DNA from: Rhizobium leguminosarum
GTDB lineage: Bacteria; Pseudomonadota; Alphaproteobacteria; Rhizobiales; Rhizobiaceae
DNA length: 64,000 nt
Direction: 5' to 3'
Assembly: GCF_001652265.1 (NCBI RefSeq)
Contig: NZ_LWBS01000109.1
Span: 1 to 64,000, forward strand
Both the position numbers and the translations under genes were made by a program. Positions 5,398 to 33,105 of the stretch are shown one piece after another. Each line of letters begins with the position of its first letter. The stretch's first letter is position 1. The notes beneath the pieces were generated by a model. It saw only the letters and a program-made list of their open reading frames with translations. It made no database searches and was not told where the DNA came from.

Positions 5398-6002
5398 ATG
5401 GAAGAACATCTTCGTTACGCAGATATTGATGACAACCAGCAACGCTCTCGTTTGGCCTCCCTGATATTGCAGGTTCCAGAACTGGTGAAGGTTCTCCGGC
5501 ACCTGGAGGCGATGAGACTGCCGGACTACCTTGTTGGGGGAGGCGCAATCTACCAGACGGTTTGGAACGCGCTGACAGGACGGCCCCGCTGGTATGGCGT
5601 CAAGGATGTCGATGTCATCTATTTCGACGATAGCGACCTGTCCTACGAGGCCGAAGACCGTGTTATCCGTGCGGTACTCCCTGTCGCAAGGGACTTGCCG
5701 ATCCCGATTCAGATCAGAAACTAGGCGCGTGTCCACCTCTGGTTCGAGGAGCGATTTGGTTTTTCGGTGGAGCCACTAACGTGTTCGAAAGACGCTCTCC
5801 TTCGATACTCGACAAAGACGCATTCTGTCGCCGTGCGATTGGCGGACGACGACCAAATGCACATCGAAGCCCCTTCGGTCTAAATGACATGTTTTCATTC
5901 CGGGTCGTGCCAAACTATGCATTGGATAACCGAAACACTCACGAGGAGAAGGCTGCGAGGGCAAAAACACTGTGGCCGGAGGTACGCGTCCATCACTGGT
6001 GA
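5398..6002 (+). pseudogene. nucleotidyltransferase family protein (PF06042/DUF925 type), inactivated
   Basis: The first 108 codons encode a recognisable N-terminal half with the GGGAIYQTVWN and DVDVIYFDD motifs; the latter contains the metal-binding aspartates. A TAG at 5722-5724 interrupts a segment that otherwise continues in frame (ARVHLWFEERFG...). A one-base loss near 5868-5875 then shifts the frame, after which the conserved tail NDMFSFRVVPNYALDN...THEEKAARAK and WPEV follow to a stop at 6002. Restoring both changes gives about 200 codons, the normal family length. Two lesions with otherwise well-kept sequence suggest recent loss. Confidence 0.85.
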
Positions 6003-6318
6003 AGAGACTGAACGATTTCAGCTTGTATTTGAGTCGAGTGTCGTAAGCCTCCGTTGAGGCCGCAGGTTCGGCCGCTTGATCGTTGAGCCTAGTGCGGCTG
6101 CCAATTCCACGGAATAATCCACCGGCGGCGAAAGTACATTTGTCGAATGACGGTGGGTTCTCAAGAGGGTTTTCAACCCGGTCGTTATCTCCATCCGATG
6201 GAGGCGCGTGAACGAATCTACCCTTTCTCGCGTAAGTGATAACCTTCAGCTAAATTCGAAACGATCAGAATTTCGCTAGAATGCGGACGTATTCGCGCTA
6301 TGATGAGTCGGTTGGTAT

Positions 6319-6609
6319 TTGGGTGCCAGCTTGGGAGATGTTTACGCTCTCTGCCTCTGTCTGCGGGGGTGGGAATTGGGCCTGCTTTCTGATTTCGCGA
6401 TTGACATTGACGATCTCGAATTCCTCCAGGAGATACTCGTCGACGCATGCAATGAGCTGAAGATTCCTCCAGACCATCAGGGCTTCGTGGCACGGGTTGT
6501 AGACCTGCGCTTCCAAGGTCACTCCCGGGAGGAAATCCTTCGAAGCCTTAGGGTGGAGTTCGCGAGTCTCCCTGACCGTGGGCAGAAACATGCCGCCATT
6601 AATCCATGA
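6319..6609 (+). CDS. hypothetical protein or fragment
   Basis: From about 6390 the frame encodes an amphipathic acidic-helical stretch (DIDDLEFLQEIL...ACNELKI...FVARVVDLRFQG) that resembles small conserved rhizobial proteins of about 60-70 residues without known function. The first 25 residues look unlike protein, so the original start may be lost. The antisense frame at 6298-6711 looks like a shadow. Confidence 0.35.
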   Translation: MGASLGDVYALCLCLRGWELGLLSDFAIDIDDLEFLQEILVDACNELKIPPDHQGFVARVVDLRFQGHSREEILRSLRVEFASLPDRGQKHAAINP

Positions 6610-7499
6610 GGACCTTGACGGCGGCGGACCAAGACGCTTCGCGAACTGATCCCAGAGTGCGAGTGGCCGGAGCCGATCATCTAAGGAGGCTGCGCGCAGG
6701 GTCTTTGACACTCACAGGGCTCAAGTTGCCCGCCCGTGTCATCGCCAGATAGCTCTTCGACCATGAGGATCGTGGTCTATCTGCGAACCGGTGACGGCAG
6801 GTGCGGTCGTCGCGCTCTTACACTCTTCTGCCGACGATGTATTCCAGCACATGTTCCCGCCCCAACGCACAGGCACGGCGTTTCCTGCCTGCAGTATAAC
6901 TGCACATTTTATACGTTGAATTTTAAAAATATGTGAGGGGACTGCTTGGCCGCGAAGATTTCCACTTACAGAAGAAGAACAGTCTACACGTTATTCGGCC
7001 GCGATGAGCTGTGTCGAAGATTGTTGCCTACCAGAAGCGCCACAAGGGGCGCTTTGAAAGCGGCGGCGGCGAAGTTGAAACCATTTCCGAAATCCGATTG
7101 CCGTCCGGACCGTATGCTCTCCGTCGTCGCCTTGGCCTTCGACTATGGGGTCGGACGAACGTACATCATTTATTGCTTCGCACCTGCGGTAATTGTCATA
7201 CGATTCAAAACGCTAAATAATAACAAAAATCAGTTGCTTACTCGAACTTTCTCGACTACGTTTTTTAAAGAAGAGTTCCGAAATAACCGGCCCTCGCCGG
7301 CGATACTCAGTGGTCGTTTGACTCGCTTGAGGGAGGATGATGACTTTGTTTATCGGACTTCGTTTCTTCGCAATGGTGCAGCGAGTGCGTGATCTCGTCT
7401 CGATCCGATACCGACCTACGACGGCAATCTGACGCGTCGTAAACCCTTTGTTCCACTTTTCTAAGATGGTGCTCCCTTGTGGCGCGCCCGAGGTTTGTT
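6610..7499. other. no supported gene
   Basis: This stretch contains several short open frames, including one of 148 codons at 6946-7392, but none has a recognisable motif or a convincing ribosome binding site. It is locally AT-rich near 6890-6940 and 7200-7280, unlike the rest of the window. I see no transposase remnant or tRNA in it. Confidence 0.5.
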
Positions 7500-23190: not shown

Positions 23191-24207
23191 ATGAATATCA
23201 GGACTATCCTTTTTGCCTCCGTTGCCGCCCTTGCCGCGGCCTCCGGAGTTCGCGCAGCCGACGCCATCGTGGCGGCGGAACCCGAGCCCGTGGAATATGT
23301 TCGCGTTTGCGACGCCTACGGTACCGGCTATTTTTATATTCCGGGGACGGAAACATGCCTTTCGATCGGCGGTTACATCCGTACCGAAGTGCGTTTTGGT
23401 GACGATATTTCCGGCGATTCCGACGTAGACTTCTGGACTCGCGGTCAGGTCACCTTCCAGGCCAAGAACGACACCGAGTACGGCACGCTCACCGGCGTTA
23501 TCACGCTGCGTTACAATGTCGACGATGCCTCCGATCAGGAAGCATTGCTCGATGAGGGCTATCTCGACATTGCCGGTTTCCGCGCCGGTATGATGTATAG
23601 CTGGTGGGATGACGACATGAGCGGCGAGACCGATACGCTCGCCAGCAACGAGACGAACCACAACTCGATCCGCTATCAGTACGAGGCCGGTGCGTTCGCG
23701 GCCGGCATCTCGGTCGACGAACTGGAAGAAGACTACGCCACCAAGCCGGGCGACGGCCCGAACAACTATGGTGTCGCAGGCCAGGTCTCCTACAAGGCCG
23801 GCGCCATCAGCGCTTACCTGCTTGCCGGTTATGACACCGACACCAGCGAAGTCGCTGTCCGCGGCATCGTCTATGCCGACATCGGCCCTGGCACGCTCGG
23901 CATTGCCGGCGTATGGGCAAGCGGCGCCAACTACTACTACGAAGAGTCCGAATGGACGATCGCAGCACAGTACGCCTTGAAGGTCAACGACAAGTGGTCG
24001 GTCACCCCGGGCTTCCAGTACTTCGAGAACATTGCTCTCGAGGCTGACGGCAACGGCTTCACCGGCGGCAGCGCCTACACGACCGGTGTCACCATCGACT
24101 ACCAGATCGTCGAAGACCTGCGTTCGAAGCTCAGCGTGCAATATCACGATGAGGACGAAGGCGACGACGAAGTGTTCGGCTTCCTGCGCTTCCAGCGCGA
24201 TTTCTAA
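23191..24207 (+). CDS. outer-membrane porin (rhizobial RopA-like, Porin_2 family)
   Basis: A 338-aa protein with a signal peptide (MNIRTILFASVAALAAASG, cleavage near RAAD) and the family opening EPVEYVRVCDAYGTGYFYIPG followed by two cysteines (positions about 38 and 54) and CLSIGGYIR. The rest alternates short beta strands with acidic turns and ends in phenylalanine, the outer-membrane assembly signal. It forms a diffusion pore for small solutes. The gene is monocistronic, followed by a terminator. Confidence 0.9.
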   Translation: MNIRTILFASVAALAAASGVRAADAIVAAEPEPVEYVRVCDAYGTGYFYIPGTETCLSIGGYIRTEVRFGDDISGDSDVDFWTRGQVTFQAKNDTEYGTLTGVITLRYNVDDASDQEALLDEGYLDIAGFRAGMMYSWWDDDMSGETDTLASNETNHNSIRYQYEAGAFAAGISVDELEEDYATKPGDGPNNYGVAGQVSYKAGAISAYLLAGYDTDTSEVAVRGIVYADIGPGTLGIAGVWASGANYYYEESEWTIAAQYALKVNDKWSVTPGFQYFENIALEADGNGFTGGSAYTTGVTIDYQIVEDLRSKLSVQYHDEDEGDDEVFGFLRFQRDF

Positions 24208-24230
24208 GATAGTCTGATTGCAGACGAGCG

Positions 24231-24258
24231 GGCGCGACCTTCGGGCCGCGCCATTTTT
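24231..24258 (+). terminator. rho-independent terminator of the porin gene
   Basis: GGCGCG and CGCGCC form a stem around a 10-base loop, followed by ATTTTTAT. It lies 24 bases after the porin stop codon. Confidence 0.75.
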
Positions 24259-24260
24259 AT

Positions 24261-24302
24261 GATGCCGAAAAGTGTGAGCGGTTTTCGGACGACATCATGC
24301 TC
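24261..24302. repeat. dispersed rhizobial intergenic repeat (copy 2)
   Basis: The sequence from GATGCCGAAAAGTGTGAGCG through GGACGACATCATGC has the form of a short repeat common downstream of genes in Rhizobium. It shares the AAAAGTG...GCGGTTTT core with the copy at 17842. Confidence 0.45.
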
Positions 24303-24321
24303 TCGCTATTGAATTTGGACG

Positions 24322-24777
24322 TCACACCCGTGAATCGGCGATGAAATCGGAATAGAATTCGTCGACCGTTCTTGCCTTGCGCATGGCGACAAGCACGCCG
24401 TCCGATTGCAGCCGCCTGGCGATGGCGGACAGCACGTTCAGATATTCGCCGCGATTGTTTTCTCCAAAGAGCAGCACGAAGGCGATATCGGTCGGGATAT
24501 CGTCGATCGCCTCGAAATCCAGCGGTTGGGCGAAGCGGAGGAGAAGGCCGCGCGGGCTGGTCATGCCGTCGATCGCCGCATGCGGGATGGCGATACCGTT
24601 GCCGATCCCCGTCGAGCCGAGCTTCTCACGCGCTTCGAGCGCCTTCAGGATGGTCTGGCCGTCGACGGAGAACGCCTTGGCGGCCTTGTCCGCGATGGTC
24701 TGCAACGCTCGCCATTTGGTCGGCGCCGACACGCCGATGAAGGTGTGTTCCGGCCGGATGATGTTGGGAAGGTTCAT
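24322..24777 (-). CDS. PtsN-like EIIA(Ntr) protein in the kdp operon
   Basis: A 151-aa PTS EIIA domain of the nitrogen/fructose type. The phosphorylated histidine is H66 in GIAIPHAAID, preceded by the EAREKLGSTGIGNG turn. The ATG at 24777 is used; the frame further upstream lies inside kdpE. It begins 41 bases after kdpE and points the same way, so it is probably the last cistron of the kdp operon. In E. coli, unphosphorylated PtsN binds KdpD and stimulates kdp expression, and it also inhibits TrkA. A dedicated paralog here suggests a built-in link between PTS(Ntr) phosphorylation and potassium uptake. Confidence 0.88.
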   Translation of the reverse strand: MNLPNIIRPEHTFIGVSAPTKWRALQTIADKAAKAFSVDGQTILKALEAREKLGSTGIGNGIAIPHAAIDGMTSPRGLLLRFAQPLDFEAIDDIPTDIAFVLLFGENNRGEYLNVLSAIARRLQSDGVLVAMRKARTVDEFYSDFIADSRV

Positions 24778-24818
24778 GTCATTCTCAATACTGTTCGGGC
24801 AGCGGGAGGGAAGGGAGG

Positions 24819-25511
24819 TCAGTCCGGTTCCCTGAGCCGGTAGCCGACGCCGGTCTCGGTGGTGATATAGTGCGGCTGGTCCGGAAGCTGCTCGACCTTT
24901 TGCCGCAGCTGCCTGATATAGACGCGCAGATACTGCACATCCGCCGCCGGCCCCCATACCTGCTTTAAAAGAAACTGGTGTGTCAGCACCTTCCCGGCGT
25001 GCTGGGCGAGCACGCGCAGGATGTCGTATTCCTTCGGCGACAGCTTTATTTCCATGCCGTCGACCTTGACGATGCGCTTGACGAGATCGATCGACAGCCC
25101 GCCGGTCTGGAAGATCGGCTTTTCTCCCTGCTGCTGCAGGCGGTGGCGCAGCGCCACGCGGATGCGGGCGCCGAGCTCGTTGATGCCGAAGGGCTTGGTG
25201 ACGTAATCGTCGGCGCCGCTTTCCAGCGCCTTGACGATACCGGCCTCGTCAGTGCGGCTGGACAGAATGACGACCGGCATGGAAAGCCCTTCGTCGCGCC
25301 ACGCCTGCAGCAGGTCGTGGCCTGATGTGTCGGGCAGGCCGAGGTCGAGCACGATGAGATCGGGCATGTCGTCGGCGACCGACTGGCGGGCAGCGCTGGC
25401 GTTTGGCGCCTCCTGCACCTCGTAGCCCTGCGCGGTCAGGCCGACGCGGAGCAGCTTGCGGATCGGAGGCTCGTCGTCGACGACGAGGATTTTGACGGCT
25501 GAACCGGTCAT
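24819..25511 (-). CDS. kdpE: response regulator KdpE
   Basis: A 230-aa OmpR-family regulator. Acidic residues D12 and D13 and the phosphoacceptor D56 (LIVLDLGLPD) are present, as are the conserved Thr/Ser and the K in VTKPF. A winged helix with RVYIRQLRQKVE occupies the C-terminus. It overlaps the end of kdpD by four bases (ATGA). It activates the kdp promoter under potassium limitation after phosphorylation by KdpD. Confidence 0.95.
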   Translation of the reverse strand: MTGSAVKILVVDDEPPIRKLLRVGLTAQGYEVQEAPNASAARQSVADDMPDLIVLDLGLPDTSGHDLLQAWRDEGLSMPVVILSSRTDEAGIVKALESGADDYVTKPFGINELGARIRVALRHRLQQQGEKPIFQTGGLSIDLVKRIVKVDGMEIKLSPKEYDILRVLAQHAGKVLTHQFLLKQVWGPAADVQYLRVYIRQLRQKVEQLPDQPHYITTETGVGYRLREPD

Positions 25512-28216
25512 GTGAGTTCATCCAGTTTCGGAATGTCGTTGGGTTTGGGCAGACGGATGGTGAAGACGGCACCGGAGCGGTCCCTCCGGTTGCTGGCGGT
25601 GATCGTGCCGCCCATCGCCTCGATGAAGCCGCGGCAGATAGAAAGGCCAAGCCCGGTGCCGGCGCGCACCTGATCGCTCTTGCGCACGCGGTAGAAGGTG
25701 TCGAAGACGCGGCCAAGATCAGCCGGCGGGATGCCGGGGCCTTCGTCCTGGACCTGGACGACGACGTTGTCGGCATCGGCCCAGCCCTCGATGTGGATGA
25801 CCGAACCCTCGGGCGCGTATTTGGCGGCATTGTCGAGCAGGTTGAAAATCACCTGCTCGAATAAGACAGGATCGACGCGCACCATCGGCAGGTCGGCGGG
25901 AATGTTCATCTCGGTCTTATGGCCGTCGAGGATCTTGGTGGCGCGGCGCAGCGCACTGCCGACGATGTCGCCGGCATAATGCAGTGCATAGTTCGGCTCC
26001 ATCGCACCGGATTCGATCTTGGTCATGTCGAGCAGATTGGCGATGAAGCGGTTGAGGCGCTCGGATTCATCGACGACGGTCGACAGCAGGTCGCTGCGGT
26101 CCTCCTCCGGCATCGAGGCGAAATAATCGCGCAACGTGCCGGCGGCGCCGAGAATGGCGGCAAGTGGTGTCTTCAGGTCGTGCGAAATCGAGGTCAGCAG
26201 GGCCGAGCGCAGCCGGTCGGCTTCGGCCGCAAGTCTTGCCCGGTCGACATCGGCGACGAGCTGGATGCGTTCGATGGCAAGGGCTGCCTGGTCGGCGAGC
26301 GCATCCAGCAGCCGCTGTTGCTCGGGCGTCAGCAGCGGGCCGTCGCGGCGGTCGCTGTCGAGGCCGATGACGCCGACAGCGGTGCGCCCGGTTCTCAGCG
26401 GCACATAGAGGCGCTTGGCGCCGGGCAGGGTATCGGCGCCGCGGCCGGCGGCATGATTGTGCTCCCAGGCCCAGCGGGCTGCGGCGATATCGGCATCGTC
26501 GAGTGTGTCATCGGGCGGATAACCGGCCTTGACGGCGATGGTGCCGTCTTCCGGCAGCAGCAGCACGACGCGGACTTTCAGCATCGAGGCGAGCTGGAAG
26601 GCCGTCGCCCAGAGCACGTCGTCGAGCGTGCCGGTGCCGGCGAGTTTTTTAGAGAAGAGATAGAGGTCCTCGGTCGTGCGCGCCCGCTGGCGGGCGGCGG
26701 CTGCCTGGCGCTGCACGGTCGCGGTCAGGTTGCTGGCGATGATGGCGACGCCCAGGAAGAAGAAGAGCGCAAGCACGCTTTCCGGATCGCTGATCGTCAA
26801 CGTGTAACGCGGCGGCAGGAAGAAGAAATTGAAGGAAAGCGCGCTGAGGATGCAGCTGTAAAGGGCCGGCCGCAGGCCGTGGAGGACGGCCGAGGTCAGC
26901 ACCGCCATCAGGAAGACGAGGGCGAGGTTGCGCACGTCGAGCACCTGGTCGAGCACGACGCTGACGCCGAGCGCGATAGCGACATAGCCGGTCGCCAGAA
27001 GATAGGCCCTGAAATCCAGTTGCGGCGGGCTGGCCGCCGCCCTGACGCCGCGCGCGGTGGTGCCGTCCTTCTCATTGCCTGAAATGACATGGACGCTGAT
27101 CTCGCCGGTCTTGCGGATGAGCTCGTCGGTGATCGAACGGCTCCACCAGTCGCGCCATGTCGGCTTCTTCGGGGCGCCGATGACGATATGGGTGACGTTG
27201 TTGGCGGTGGCATGACGAACGAGCTCCTCGGCCACTTCGCGGCCGGGAATGGTGATCGCTTCGCCGCCGAGCTGCTCGGCAAGGCGCAGCGTGGCGGCGA
27301 CGATATCGCGCTCGGCTTCCGTCAGATTGATCGAGCGGTTGGTCTCGATATAGACGGCAGCCCAGGGCGCGCGCAGCCGTGAGGCCATGCGGGCGCCATA
27401 ACGCACCAGCGAGGCTGAGCGCGGATGGTGGTCGACCGAGACGAGAACGCGTTCGCCCGCCGCCCAGGGGCCCGATATGGCATGGGCCTGCATATGCGTG
27501 AGCAACTGGTCGTCGACGCGCTGGGCAGTCTTGCGCAGCGCAAGCTCTCGCAGTGCCGTCAGGTTGCCCGGGGTGAAATAATTGCTCAGCGCCCGTTCGG
27601 CGGTGCGCGGCATGTAGACCTTGCCGTCATGCAGGCGCTTGATCAGATCATCCGGCGTCAGGTCGATGATCTCGACGTCGTCGGCAAGGTCGATGATCGA
27701 GTCCGGCACCGTCTCGCGCACGCGGATGCGAGTGATCTGCGAGACGACGTCGTTTAGGCTCTCGACGTGCTGGATGTTCAGCGTCGTGTAGACGTCGATG
27801 CCGCGATCGAGCAATTCCTTGACGTCGAGATAGCGCTTCGGATGGCGGCTGCCATCTGCATTGGTGTGGGCGAGTTCGTCGACCAGCACAAGATCCGGCC
27901 TGCGGGCGAGGATGCCGTCGAGGTCCATTTCCTCGAGCGGCCGACCCTTGTAGCTGATTTCGACGCGGGGGATGATCTCGAAGCCGGCGACGAGCGCTTC
28001 GGTCTCCTTGCGGCCGTGGGTCTCGACAACGCCGATGACGACGTCGAGACCGTCGGCCATCTTGGCTCGGCCGGAGACGAGCATCTCGTAGGTCTTGCCG
28101 ACGCCGGGGGCCGCTCCGAGAAAGATCTTCAGACGGCCGCGCATTTCGGCCCGGGCTTTTTCGAGAAGCGCATCGGGCGAGGGCCTGCCGGCCTGGTCGC
28201 GGTTGTCGTCTGGCAT
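25508..28216 (-). CDS. kdpD: sensor histidine kinase KdpD
   Basis: A 902-aa kinase of normal length. The N-terminal KdpD domain has Walker A GAAPGVGKT (34-42) and a Walker B-like LVDELAHTN. A USP-like domain follows, then four closely spaced membrane segments around residues 405-510, a GAF-like domain, and the HisKA/HATPase core with the phosphorylated His at about 679 (SHDLKTPL) and the N, G1 and G2 boxes at the C-terminus. It senses potassium or ionic conditions and phosphorylates KdpE. Confidence 0.95.
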   Translation of the reverse strand: MPDDNRDQAGRPSPDALLEKARAEMRGRLKIFLGAAPGVGKTYEMLVSGRAKMADGLDVVIGVVETHGRKETEALVAGFEIIPRVEISYKGRPLEEMDLDGILARRPDLVLVDELAHTNADGSRHPKRYLDVKELLDRGIDVYTTLNIQHVESLNDVVSQITRIRVRETVPDSIIDLADDVEIIDLTPDDLIKRLHDGKVYMPRTAERALSNYFTPGNLTALRELALRKTAQRVDDQLLTHMQAHAISGPWAAGERVLVSVDHHPRSASLVRYGARMASRLRAPWAAVYIETNRSINLTEAERDIVAATLRLAEQLGGEAITIPGREVAEELVRHATANNVTHIVIGAPKKPTWRDWWSRSITDELIRKTGEISVHVISGNEKDGTTARGVRAAASPPQLDFRAYLLATGYVAIALGVSVVLDQVLDVRNLALVFLMAVLTSAVLHGLRPALYSCILSALSFNFFFLPPRYTLTISDPESVLALFFFLGVAIIASNLTATVQRQAAAARQRARTTEDLYLFSKKLAGTGTLDDVLWATAFQLASMLKVRVVLLLPEDGTIAVKAGYPPDDTLDDADIAAARWAWEHNHAAGRGADTLPGAKRLYVPLRTGRTAVGVIGLDSDRRDGPLLTPEQQRLLDALADQAALAIERIQLVADVDRARLAAEADRLRSALLTSISHDLKTPLAAILGAAGTLRDYFASMPEEDRSDLLSTVVDESERLNRFIANLLDMTKIESGAMEPNYALHYAGDIVGSALRRATKILDGHKTEMNIPADLPMVRVDPVLFEQVIFNLLDNAAKYAPEGSVIHIEGWADADNVVVQVQDEGPGIPPADLGRVFDTFYRVRKSDQVRAGTGLGLSICRGFIEAMGGTITASNRRDRSGAVFTIRLPKPNDIPKLDELT

Positions 28217-28329: not shown

Positions 28330-28899
28330 TTACTGAGTCATAGAAGCATCAAGGCCCTGGTTCAACGCCAGAACATTGACTGTGGGTTCGCCGAGAATGC
28401 CGATTTCGCGGTCTTGAACGGCACTGTCGACCAGCGCCTTGACCTTGGCCTCATCGAGGCTTCGCGCCTTGGCAACACGCGCCACCTGGAAATAGGCAGC
28501 CTCCGGCGAGATATCGGGATCGAGGCCGCTGGCCGAAGCGGTGACGAGGTCGGCGGGGACATCGGCCGTCGGGTTCGCCGCCTTGGCTGCCTCGTAGTCA
28601 CCCTTGACGCGGTCGATCAGCTTCTGGCTGGTCGGGCCGAGGTTAGAGCCGCTGGAGGCAGCCGCATTGTAGCCGTCGCCGGCGGCCGAAGGGCGGCCGT
28701 GGAAATACTTGTCGCTGGTGAAGGCCTGGCCGATCAGCGTCGAGCCGATCACCTGGCCGTTCTTCTCGATCAGGCTGCCGTTCGCCTGGGTCGGGAAGAG
28801 GGCCTGGGCAGCACCCGTCATGGCGAGGGGATAGAGAAGGCCGGTGATGACGGTGGTAGCGACGATCATGACGATTGCCGGACGAAGTTCTTTCAACAT
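28330..28899 (-). CDS. kdpC: potassium-transporting ATPase subunit KdpC
   Basis: A 189-aa single-span protein: an N-terminal membrane segment ([20 protein letters not shown]) and a periplasmic domain with [16 protein letters not shown]...SGGSNLGP-type sequence (here [11 protein letters not shown]) and SGLDPDISP. It stabilises the KdpFABC complex. It is separated from kdpB by 75 bases with a strong hairpin and from kdpD by 113 bases. Confidence 0.95.
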
Positions 28900-28974: not shown

Positions 28975-31035
28975 TTAGGCGAGGCCGAGGGCTGCGACAG
29001 CCATGTCGATCGCCTTGATGCCGATGAAGGGGACGATGATGCCGCCGGCACCATAAATCAGCAGGTTGCGGGACAGTAGCGCGCCGGCGCCGATCGGACG
29101 GTAGCGGACACCCTTCAATGAAAGCGGGATCAGCGCGATGATGATCAGCGCATTGAAGATGATCGCCGAGAGGATGGCGCTTTGCGGCGTCGACAATCCC
29201 ATGATGTTGAGCACGCCGAGCTGCGGGTAGAAGGTCAGGAACATCGCCGGGATGATGGCGAAGTACTTGGCAATGTCGTTGGCGATCGAAAACGTCGTCA
29301 GCGCGCCGCGCGTCATCAGGAGCTGCTTGCCGATCTCGACGATCTCGATGAGCTTCGTTGGATCGCTATCGAGATCGACCATGTTGCCGGCCTCGCGGGC
29401 GGCGACCGTGCCGGTGTTCATGGCGACGCCGACATCGGCCTGGGCAAGCGCCGGCGCATCGTTGGTGCCGTCGCCGCACATGGCGACGAGCTTGCCCTTC
29501 GACTGCTCCTCGCGCATCAGCGCCAGCTTCATCTCCGGTGTTGCCTGGGCGAGGAAGTCGTCGACCCCGGCTTCGGCTGCGATGGCGGCCGCCGTCAGCG
29601 GGTTATCGCCTGTTATCATCACCGTGCGGATGCCCATGCGGCGAAGCTCGGTGAAGCGCTCGCGGATGCCGCCCTTGACGATATCCTTCAGCTGGATGAC
29701 GCCGAGCAGCCTGCCGTCGCGGGCAACTGCCAGCGGCGTGCCGCCTGATTTGGCGACTTCGTCGGCGATCGACTGCAGTTCGCGCACGACCTCGCTGCCG
29801 TTTTTCGAGGATGAATCGCCGTTGACATAGGTCAGCACGGCATCGACCGCACCCTTGCGGATCGAGGCTCCTTCGAGATCGACGCCGCTCATGCGGGTCT
29901 GGGCGGTGAAGGGCACGAAGGTTGCTTTCAGGCTTGCCATGTCGCGGCCGCGGATCGCGTATTTCTCCTTGGCGAGCACGACGATGGAACGACCTTCCGG
30001 CGTTTCGTCGGCAAGCGAGGCGAGCTGCGCGGCATCGGCGAGATCCTGTTCGGGAACGCCGCGTACCGGACGGAAGGTCGTCGCCTGGCGATTGCCGAGC
30101 GTGATCGTGCCCGTCTTGTCGAGCAGCAGCGTGTCGACGTCGCCGGCGGCTTCGACCGCGCGGCCGGACATGGCGAGCACGTTGAAGCGGACGAGGCGGT
30201 CCATGCCGGCGATGCCGATTGCCGAGAGCAGTGCGCCGATCGTCGTGGGGATCAGGGTGACGAAGAGAGCGACGAGCACGATGATCGGGATCGAGCCGCC
30301 GGCATAAATGGCAAAGCTCGGGATCGTCGCGGTGGCGAGCACGAAGATCAGCGTCATGCCGGCGAGCAGGATGTTAAGCGCGATCTCGTTCGGCGTTTTC
30401 TGGCGTTCGGCGCCTTCGACGAGCGCAATCATCCGGTCGATGAAGGTCGAGCCGGCAGCGGCGGTGATGCGGACACGGATCCAGTCGGAGAGTACCTGCG
30501 TGCCGCCGGTGACGGCCGAGCGGTCGCCGCCGGATTCGCGGATGACAGGGGCGGATTCACCGGTGATCGCCGCTTCGTTGACGGAGGCCACACCTTCGAT
30601 CACTTCGCCATCCGAGGGGATGATGTCACCGGCCTCGACCAGCACGATATCGCCGACCTTGAGGCTGGTGCCCGGCACCATGCGGTAGCCGCTGCCGTTG
30701 TTGGCGGTGAGTAGCTTCGCCTGGGTTTCGGTGCGCGCTTTGCGCAGCGAATCCGCCTGCGCTTTGCCGCGGCCTTCGGCGACGGCTTCGGCGAAATTGG
30801 CGAAGAGGACGGTGAACCAGAGCCAGAGATTGATCTGGAACGAGAAGCCGAGATTGCCGTTGCCCGCTACCAAATCGCGCAGGAAGAGGACGGTGGTCAG
30901 CACCGAGACCGTGGCCACCACAAACATGACCGGGTTTCTGGCAAGCGCCCGCGGGTTGAGCTTCTTGAAAGCGGCGCCCACGGCCGGAACGAGGATGCGA
31001 GAATCCATGATGCTCGCGGATTTTGCCTGGCTCAT
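28975..31035 (-). CDS. kdpB: potassium-transporting ATPase ATP-binding subunit KdpB
   Basis: A 686-aa P-type ATPase. It has the actuator TGES motif, the phosphorylation motif DKTGTIT (Asp near 305), and the hinge [19 protein letters not shown]. About seven membrane segments are predicted. The start at 31035 has a GGAG site. It hydrolyses ATP to drive potassium moved by KdpA. The TGES serine, a site of inhibitory phosphorylation in E. coli KdpB, is conserved. Confidence 0.96.
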
Positions 31036-31241: not shown

Positions 31242-32945
31242 TCAGAAGGTCTGGCCGGCAATCATGACCAGGTGCTCGACGATAGGGCCGAGCGCCAAAG
31301 CCGGAAAGAAGGTCAGGCCGCCGACGATCAGGATCGTGCCGACGAGCAGGCCGACGAAGAGCGGTCCATCCGTCGGGAAGGTGCCTGCCGAGGCCGGAAC
31401 CGTCTTCTTGGCGATCAGCGAGCCGGCGATGGCAAGCGTCGGGATGATGACCAGGAAGCGGCCGGCGAGCATGCCGATGCCGAGCGTCACGTTGTACCAG
31501 GGCGTATTGCCGGTCAGGCCGCCGAAAGCCGAGCCGTTGTTGGCCGCAGCCGAGGTATAGGCATAGAGGATTTCGGAGAAGCCGTGCGGGCCGGCCGTGC
31601 CGATCGAGGCGACGGCGGAGGGCAGCACGGTGGCGATCGCGGTAAAGACCAGCATGGCGAGCGGCAGGCAGAGGATGGCGAGAACGGCCATCTTCATTTC
31701 CTTCGCCTCGATCTTCTTGCCGAGATATTCCGGCGTGCGGCCGACCATCAGGCCGGCGACGAAGACGGCGACGATGATGAAGAGAAGGATGCCGTAGAAA
31801 CCCGCGCCGACACCGCCGACAATGATTTCGCCGAGTTGCATGTTGATCAGCGGGATCAGGCCGCCAAGCGCGGTAAAGCTGCCATGCATGGCATTGACCG
31901 CGCCGCAGGAAGCGGCCGTGGTAATGACCGCAAAGAGCGAAGACAGGGCGACGCCGAAGCGGACTTCCTTGCCTTCCATATTGCCGCCGCCGAGACCGAA
32001 AGCGTGCATCAGCGGGTTGCCGGCAGCTTCGGCCCAATAGGTGACGATGACACCTGCGAGGAACAGCACGCCCATCGTGGCAAGGATCGCCCAGCCCTGG
32101 CGCTGATTGCCGACCATGCGGCCGAAGACGTTGGTCAAAGCCGCGCCGATCGCGAAGATCGAGATCATCTGGATGAGATTGGAGATCGCGTTGGGATTTT
32201 CGAACGGATGGGCCGAATTGGCGTTGAAGAAGCCGCCGCCGTTGGTGCCGAGCATCTTGATCGCAAGCTGCGAGGCGACGGGCCCGACGGCAATCGTCTG
32301 CTGCGCGCCTTCGAGCGTGGTGGCATTGACATAGGGCCCAAGCGTCTGCGGTACGCCGAGATAGACGTAGACGATCGTCAGCACGATGCAGGTCGGCAGC
32401 AGGATGTAGAACGTGCCGCGGATCATATCGACCCAGAAATTGCCGATCGCCTTGCCCGACGCCCGTGCGAAGGCACGAATGAAGGCGACAGCGATCGCCA
32501 TGCCGGTCGCGGCCGACAGGAAGTTCTGCACCGTGAAGCCGGCCATCTGGGTCAGATACGACATGGTGCTTTCGCCGCCGTAATTCTGCCAGTTGGTGTT
32601 TGTGGGAAAGCTGACGGCAGAGTTGAACGAAAGCTCCGGCGGGACGGCGGCCATGCCGGCCGGATTATAGGGCAGGGTGTCCTGCAGGCGCAGGAGCGCG
32701 TAGAGGACGAGGACGCCGAGCAGGTTGAACATCAGCATCGCGAAGGCATAGGAGGTCCAATGCTGCTCCTCGCGCTCGCTGGTGCCCGCAATAAGGTAAA
32801 GCCCCCGTTCGATCGGAACGAGGACCGGGGAGAGGAATGTGCGCTCGCCGTTATAGACACGCGTCATGTAGCCGCCGAGCGGTTTGACGAGCACGAGGAC
32901 GATCCCGCAGTAAAGCAGGATCTGAAGCCATCCGTTGAGGGTCAT
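31242..32945 (-). CDS. kdpA: potassium-transporting ATPase channel subunit KdpA
   Basis: A 567-aa channel-like subunit with ten or so membrane segments and the four pore-loop repeats of the SKT superfamily; the first is visible as [11 protein letters not shown] and another as [19 protein letters not shown]. It selects and conducts potassium within KdpFABC. The start codon lacks a good ribosome binding site, and a large hairpin lies 27 bases upstream, so translation may be coupled to structure or to kdpF. Confidence 0.96.
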
Positions 32946-33015: not shown

Positions 33016-33105
33016 TCAAAAGCGTTCTGGGCGAAGGAGAGCGTAGGTGAGATAAACGGTGAGAAACACGGTCACGGCACCGCTCAAGACATAGTCGAGG
33101 GTCAT
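33016..33105 (-). CDS. kdpF: Kdp complex small subunit KdpF
   Basis: A 29-aa hydrophobic peptide (starts MTLDYVLSG, ends LLRPERF) with one membrane helix and the terminal Arg-Pro-Glu-Arg-Phe seen in KdpF proteins. It has the same length as E. coli KdpF and a strong AGGAG site eight bases upstream. It acts as a stabilising single-helix subunit of the ATPase. Confidence 0.85.
   Translation of the reverse strand: MTLDYVLSGAVTVFLTVYLTYALLRPERF

Follow-up and report, generated by a model that had tools for sequence, protein, structure and literature searches.

The EIIA(Ntr) protein PtsN of E. coli belongs to the same family as the protein described here, while its gene lies in the rpoN operon (PMC3665714). 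This unlinked PtsN binds the sensor kinase KdpD (PMC3665714, PMC13104625), as the initial annotation of our locus had also stated. Its reported contact site is the HisKA part of KdpD; PtsN1 and PtsN2 of Sinorhizobium fredii, in contrast, contact KdpD via its GAF domain (PMC9239096). According to a 2026 review, about 10% of alphaproteobacterial genomes carry an additional ptsN that shares an operon with kdpABCDE, and the ptsN copy in the kdpDE cluster of root symbionts is named ptsN2 (PMC13104625). For R. leguminosarum 3841, PtsN1 and PtsN2 were both reported as KdpD binders, and a ptsN1/ptsN2 double mutant showed a low-K+ growth defect severe like that of a kdpA mutant (PMC3665714). S. fredii KdpD was bound by PtsN1 and PtsN2, not by PtsN3; at low K+ the effects of PtsN1 and PtsN2 were cumulative, with the ptsN12 double mutant growing worse than the ptsN1 mutant, while a ptsN2 single mutant grew without delay and formed fewer nodules than the wild type (PMC9239096). 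A ptsN2 mutant of R. leguminosarum was reported to be free of the motility defect of other PTS(Ntr) mutants. For the two rhizobia, a positive effect was reported, with PtsN taken to be active when unphosphorylated (PMC3665714, PMC9239096); in the case of P. putida, it is phosphorylated PtsN that the review names (PMC13104625).

In this study, we analyzed a stretch of 64,000 nucleotides of Rhizobium leguminosarum (contig NZ_LWBS01000109.1), in the following called the window, which carries a kdp operon ending with an EIIA(Ntr)-like gene. The assembly containing it is 93.4% complete with 5.4% contamination. The gene is the ptsN2 of the R. leguminosarum complex, and its kdp-linked arrangement is already known. 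The initial annotation had interpreted it as a regulator encoded inside the kdp operon and connecting the PTS(Ntr) state with potassium uptake; it was right about the arrangement, the H66 site and the connection with KdpD, but all three had already been published (PMC3665714, PMC9239096, PMC13104625).

The kdp operon of the window and its last gene

All genes of the operon lie on the minus strand in the order kdpF, kdpA, kdpB, kdpC, kdpD, kdpE, ptsN2. The 29-aa kdpF product (33016..33105) was recognized from its translation, and the kdpF of plasmid pRL11, equal in length (90 bases), likewise precedes kdpA. By NCBIfam search, kdpA (31242..32945), kdpB (28975..31035) and kdpC (28330..28899) were assigned. 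kdpD (25508..28216) encodes a sensor kinase of 902 aa with the Pfam domains KdpD, GAF, HisKA and HATPase_c, scores 798.6 bits against the NCBIfam KdpD model, below the cut-off of 1123, and overlaps by 4 bases with kdpE (24819..25511). The latter encodes a response regulator of 230 aa (PF00072 and PF00486), and its best NCBIfam match is the KdpE model with 211.2 bits, below the curated cut-off of 325. After a gap of 41 bases (24778..24818), ptsN2 follows with its ATG at 24777 and its TGA at 24322 (24322..24777, minus strand; 151 aa). The initial annotation had placed an EIIA(Ntr)-like gene with H66 at the end of the leftward kdp operon, 41 bases past kdpE, and our ORF, codon and gap coordinates agree with this; the span given there, 24322..25511, correctly comprises kdpE plus ptsN2.

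A longer ORF of 211 aa in the same frame with a start at 24957 was rejected. It overlaps kdpE, and in 55 kdpE-linked named loci the aligned part starts at the residue encoded at 24777, there with a methionine (MNL, MDL, MAL, MYL); for these two reasons, 24777 was taken as the start of ptsN2. With dN/dS values of 0.08–0.26 in comparison to six relatives, ptsN2 is no chance ORF.

The PtsN2 protein matches PF00359 (PTS_EIIA_2) over residues 6–143 with 97.6 bits (cut-off 27), and the PDB entry matching it best is 1a6j, IIA(Ntr) of E. coli (residues 3–146 aligned, E 2e-24). H66 (CAT, 24580–24582) and R50 (24628–24630) align with the phospho-acceptor histidine and the nearby arginine of E. coli PtsN, which are numbered H73 and R57 in the structure paper (PMC1201152). 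The second conserved histidine (E. coli H120) is absent, Tyr112 (24442–24444) being found instead, and residue 68 is an alanine (24574–24576). Since the score with the NCBI PtsN equivalog model TIGR01419 is 105.8 bits and thus under the cut-off of 138.7, the protein is classed here as a PtsN paralog and not as a PtsN equivalog. The canonical PtsN1 of the order, which is not kdp-linked, shares PF00359, H66, R50 and most of the loop 50–66 with PtsN2 of the window, but usually has H112 and a basic residue 68 instead of Y112 and A68.

The closest named relatives of PtsN2 come from R. leguminosarum and kin and are up to 99% identical. The PtsN2 encoded on plasmid pRL11 of R. johnstonii 3841 is 97% identical, with few differing residues and none differing in kind; on pRL11 also the order kdpF-A-B-C-D-E-ptsN2 is the same, followed as in the window by porin and sulfate ABC genes. 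More distant is PtsN2 of S. fredii CCBAU45436 (44% identical over residues 1–142), which also follows kdpE and has H66, A67 and the same KdpD docking residues, but keeps His112 and has P68 where the protein of the window has Tyr112 and A68.

A scan of positions 24150–25000, including the kdpE-ptsN2 gap, found no sigma-70-like promoter and no intrinsic terminator, which is a weak test, and one promoter-like site was found upstream of kdpF (33500–33473, minus strand, 9/12 matches). The absence of such signals in the gap fits co-expression of kdpE and ptsN2 without being a proof.

Predicted docking on KdpD and the phosphate route to H66

D517 and D570, named as key residues for PtsN docking in the GAF domain of S. 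fredii KdpD (PMC9239096), are present under the same numbers in KdpD of the window (675 identical residues over 902 alignment columns); R588, listed in the same article among other polar residues, corresponds to a histidine. By analogy with the binding reported for the 3841 ortholog, PtsN2 of the window is predicted to dock on KdpD. A histidine at residue 112 is not needed for this, because PtsN2 of R. leguminosarum (Tyr112) and of S. fredii (His112) were both reported as KdpD binders.

The genome to which the window belongs has two EIIA genes above the family cut-off, namely ptsN2 and a canonical ptsN1 located behind an S30AE/hpf gene. Two EI matches, among them an EI of 755 aa, and two HPr matches were found, and the gene of a 91-aa HPr (NPr) sits behind putative hprK and manX genes, as read by eye. 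Since EI and NPr genes are thus carried by the same genome, the gene content indicates that a phosphate route to H66 exists. The second HPr match adjoins the second EI match (G000:C450:195421-196051). This pair is perhaps part of a DhaM-type protein.

We consider PtsN2 to be probably a Kdp-dedicated EIIA(Ntr) paralog, which serves as a positive low-K+ amplifier of KdpD gated by PTS(Ntr) and has been released from the other partners of PtsN1. At high PTS(Ntr) flux, NPr would phosphorylate H66 of PtsN2, while unphosphorylated PtsN2 would dock on the GAF domain of KdpD and thereby favor activation of KdpE. Since ptsN2 comes last, behind kdpFABCDE, inducing kdp would also yield more PtsN2, and the loop would be a positive, K+-limited amplifier under PTS(Ntr) gating. 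The gene travels with kdp and would be relieved of constraints acting on PtsN1 near helix 4. For orthologs, other groups reported that KdpD is bound and that PtsN acts when unphosphorylated, and co-transcription and feedback are what we infer for the operon of the window. In the accessible parts of the published ptsN2 work, we met no demonstration that kdp induction raises PtsN2; the RT-PCR in S. fredii spanned kdpF-A-B-C.

A feedback of the opposite sign, with PtsN2 competing with PtsN1 for KdpD or draining phosphate from NPr and thus damping the induced kdp operon, appears quite improbable. The place behind kdpE and the altered surroundings of helix 4 would allow such a weaker competing ligand, but the low-K+ growth of the S. 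fredii ptsN12 mutant was worse than that of the ptsN1 mutant, so PtsN2 adds to the output there (PMC9239096).

Spread and phylogeny of kdp-linked EIIA genes

The initial annotation had proposed to survey the kdp loci of the Rhizobiales for the gene. In a sample of 121 genomes of the order, KdpD was present in 35, and an EIIA gene directly downstream of kdpE was found in at least nine genomes (7% of the sample; nine of the 35 with KdpD), which is a lower bound, as EIIA matches were listed up to E 1e-6. These nine genomes (G000, G023, G117, G076, G092, G090, G034, G027, and G087) were obtained by comparing positions and confirmed by BLAST. Among the 56 loci of named relatives, kdpE lies just upstream on the same strand in 55 (L003–L057), the exception being Metarhizobium album (L058) without kdpE upstream. 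A search of 385 genomes of the class at E 1e-53 yielded only two matches, both inside the order and one of them from the genome of the window itself; the cut-off is strict and might miss diverged linked copies like L198–L200. Near-identical copies sit in different families (L066, L068, L132), which suggests that the gene has moved between families.

The linkage is not absolute. G246, which belongs to the same genus, has an intact ptsN2 (L187, 6859–7311) in the synteny of the window, between sulfate transport genes and an alcohol dehydrogenase gene; within the 15 kb read, no kdpA-E genes were found beside it, and KdpD of G246 is encoded on another contig. On plasmid p42e of R. etli CFN 42, the ptsN2 following kdpE (L203, 5001–5454) lacks an annotated CDS and is interrupted close to its 3′ end, so that it may be a pseudogene or reflect a sequencing error. 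Given this orphan and this broken copy, ptsN2 is not tied to co-transcription and can be dispensed with. The ptsN2 match in Sinorhizobium sp. B11 (CP091033.1) is also split in two pieces.

Further neighborhoods were noted for unlinked EIIA genes. The EIIA gene of M. album (L058, 4408–6456), placed near the kdp-linked group in the tree, follows the gene of a CNNM-CBS-CorC protein; in E. coli, the CorC domain of YcgO is a reported target of PtsN (PMC11808508). Two unlinked genes (L188, 6881–8945; L191, about 5900–7250) adjoin dihydrodipicolinate-synthase-like genes, with Pfam run on the L188 gene only. Another neighborhood of an EIIA gene and a two-component gene was seen in L189 (4100–7277), where the EIIA gene comes after that of a hybrid histidine kinase containing two receiver stretches.

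These loci bear on the reading that PtsN2 acquired a target outside Kdp and is only carried along by the operon. The orphan of G246 is intact, with dN/dS values of 0.14–0.19 in comparison to three sequences, and related unlinked EIIA genes have the CNNM/CorC and dihydrodipicolinate-synthase-like neighbors just mentioned, as could be expected for such a protein; but the linkage to kdpE recurs across families and KdpD binding has been reported (PMC9239096, PMC3665714), and we regard this reading as quite improbable in comparison to a PtsN2 serving Kdp.

From the EIIA proteins of the order, both linked and unlinked, maximum-likelihood trees were calculated with columns 67, 68, and 112 excluded. 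L183 and L184 (both Phe112) and six near-identical canonical rows were left out, and the Rhizobium-like linked rows of named relatives together with L002 were thinned to seven. One branch separated all 43 linked rows and five unlinked ones (48 in total) from the rest. The branch holding all linked rows had a bootstrap value of 100 but an SH-aLRT of only 10, and the bootstrap was not settled. PtsN2 of the window was placed among the kdp-linked rows on starred branches. On the best tree, the kdp linkage label requires at least five changes, and a split containing just the linked rows occurred in 0 of 200 bootstrap trees; when the 43 linked rows and three of the five unlinked ones were constrained to form a clade, this was not rejected (AU p 0.239). 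This topology is compatible with a single old kdp-dedicated lineage with later escapes, although it does not prove it.

Residue pattern of the kdp-linked proteins

For a comparison of conservation, 39 columns with a uniformity of 95% or more among 62 canonical rows were inspected in the 43 linked rows. R50, E51, G54, T56, G57, G59, A63, P65, and H66 were kept in 43/43 linked rows, and L53 (41/43), S55 (37/43), G61 (42/43), and I64 (23/43) to varying extents. Ten positions (22, 23, 26, 104, 109–112, 114, and 115) dropped to 44% or less. E. coli PtsN agrees with the canonical rows at just two of the ten, K22 and H112, so most of the ten columns are alphaproteobacterial features and not general features of PtsN.

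The histidine at residue 112 (E. coli H120), a tyrosine in the window, was found in 13/43 linked and 65/68 unlinked tree rows. After six unlinked rows were set aside (L058, L162, and L105 with H112; L093 and L099 with Tyr; L069 with Gln), it was present in 62/62 unlinked rows, and among 165 distinct proteins in 13/89 linked and 71/76 unlinked ones. Its state changed at least 11 times within the side of 48 rows (43 linked, five unlinked) and once in the other 64. A sign test for kdp linkage and H112 loss had just four independent pairs, too few for significance, and the case for H112 loss therefore rests on these change counts. Residue 68 is Lys or Arg in 67/68 unlinked and 10/43 linked tree rows, and Ala in the window. 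Altogether, the kdp-linked proteins appear to be a specialized group often devoid of features that ordinary PtsN rarely loses; faster evolution of the linked group could explain part of these losses.

Loss of phosphorylation is not claimed from the loss of the second histidine, as H66 and R50 are kept and structural work doubts a role of this histidine in transfer: it points off the active site of IIA(Ntr) and hardly transfers phosphate (PMC1201152, PMC13104625). For K75D in Salmonella, which corresponds to residue 68 here, functional properties were reported as unaltered (PMC5024086). Given the orientation of the second histidine and the neutrality of K75D, the losses are more plausibly read as release from a binding surface than as lost phosphorylation. 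In the accessible parts of the published ptsN2 work we did not meet this residue pattern, although the alignment in Fig. 1C of PMC9239096 may already show it. The pattern, which names testable positions, is thus the possibly new content of our analysis.

The same comparison can be used to judge whether PtsN2 is a redundant spare of PtsN1, with the same partners and the same phosphorylation and kept for dosage. The invariance of H66 and R50 in the linked rows agrees with this, as do the cumulative ptsN1/ptsN2 phenotypes in S. fredii (PMC9239096) and the defect of the double mutant in R. leguminosarum (PMC3665714). A mere spare is nevertheless unlikely in our view, since the linked proteins appear to group apart from most PtsN1, ten near-uniform canonical positions are at 44% or less in them, the PtsN equivalog score stays below its cut-off, and the ptsN2 mutant was reported without the motility defect of other PTS(Ntr) mutants.

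The reading of PtsN2 as a Kdp-dedicated amplifier is directly supported by the gene and its position, H66 and R50, the docking residues of KdpD, the apparent grouping apart from most PtsN1, and the frequent loss of the second histidine; from the same pattern, we infer the loss of PtsN1's other partners. Against it count the mild ptsN2 single mutants (low-K+ growth in S. fredii, PMC9239096; motility in R. leguminosarum), the orphan ptsN2 of G246, the weak uniting branch, the sharing of only two of the ten positions by E. coli, the possibly faster evolution, and the literature on the second histidine and K75D (PMC1201152, PMC5024086). A further-reaching reading would be that of an old kdp-dedicated EIIA(Ntr) subfamily, in which the phospho-switch (H66, R50, most of the loop 50–66) was retained and ten positions held by alphaproteobacterial PtsN1 were shed. 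PtsN2 would then be a separation-of-function EIIA linking PTS(Ntr) to potassium alone, and the shed positions would map the face of PtsN1 for non-Kdp targets. We put this forward tentatively, as rather doubtful; our confidence both in it and in the amplifier was lowered by the two positions shared with E. coli and by the weak uniting branch.

PTS(Ntr) is reported to steer many processes through one small protein. We know of no assignment of PtsN faces to particular targets. SpoT is one of the non-Kdp targets of PtsN. The ChvG/ChvI system (PMC13104625) and ABC transport (PMC3665714) were described as others. The gene of the window is one more member of a published case, and the useful part is the comparative one: a paralog line tied to one target, together with a list of dropped canonical positions, names direct mutants. 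If such a dedicated subfamily exists, its natural loss at ten positions would map the face of PtsN1 for ChvG/ChvI, ABC transport or SpoT.
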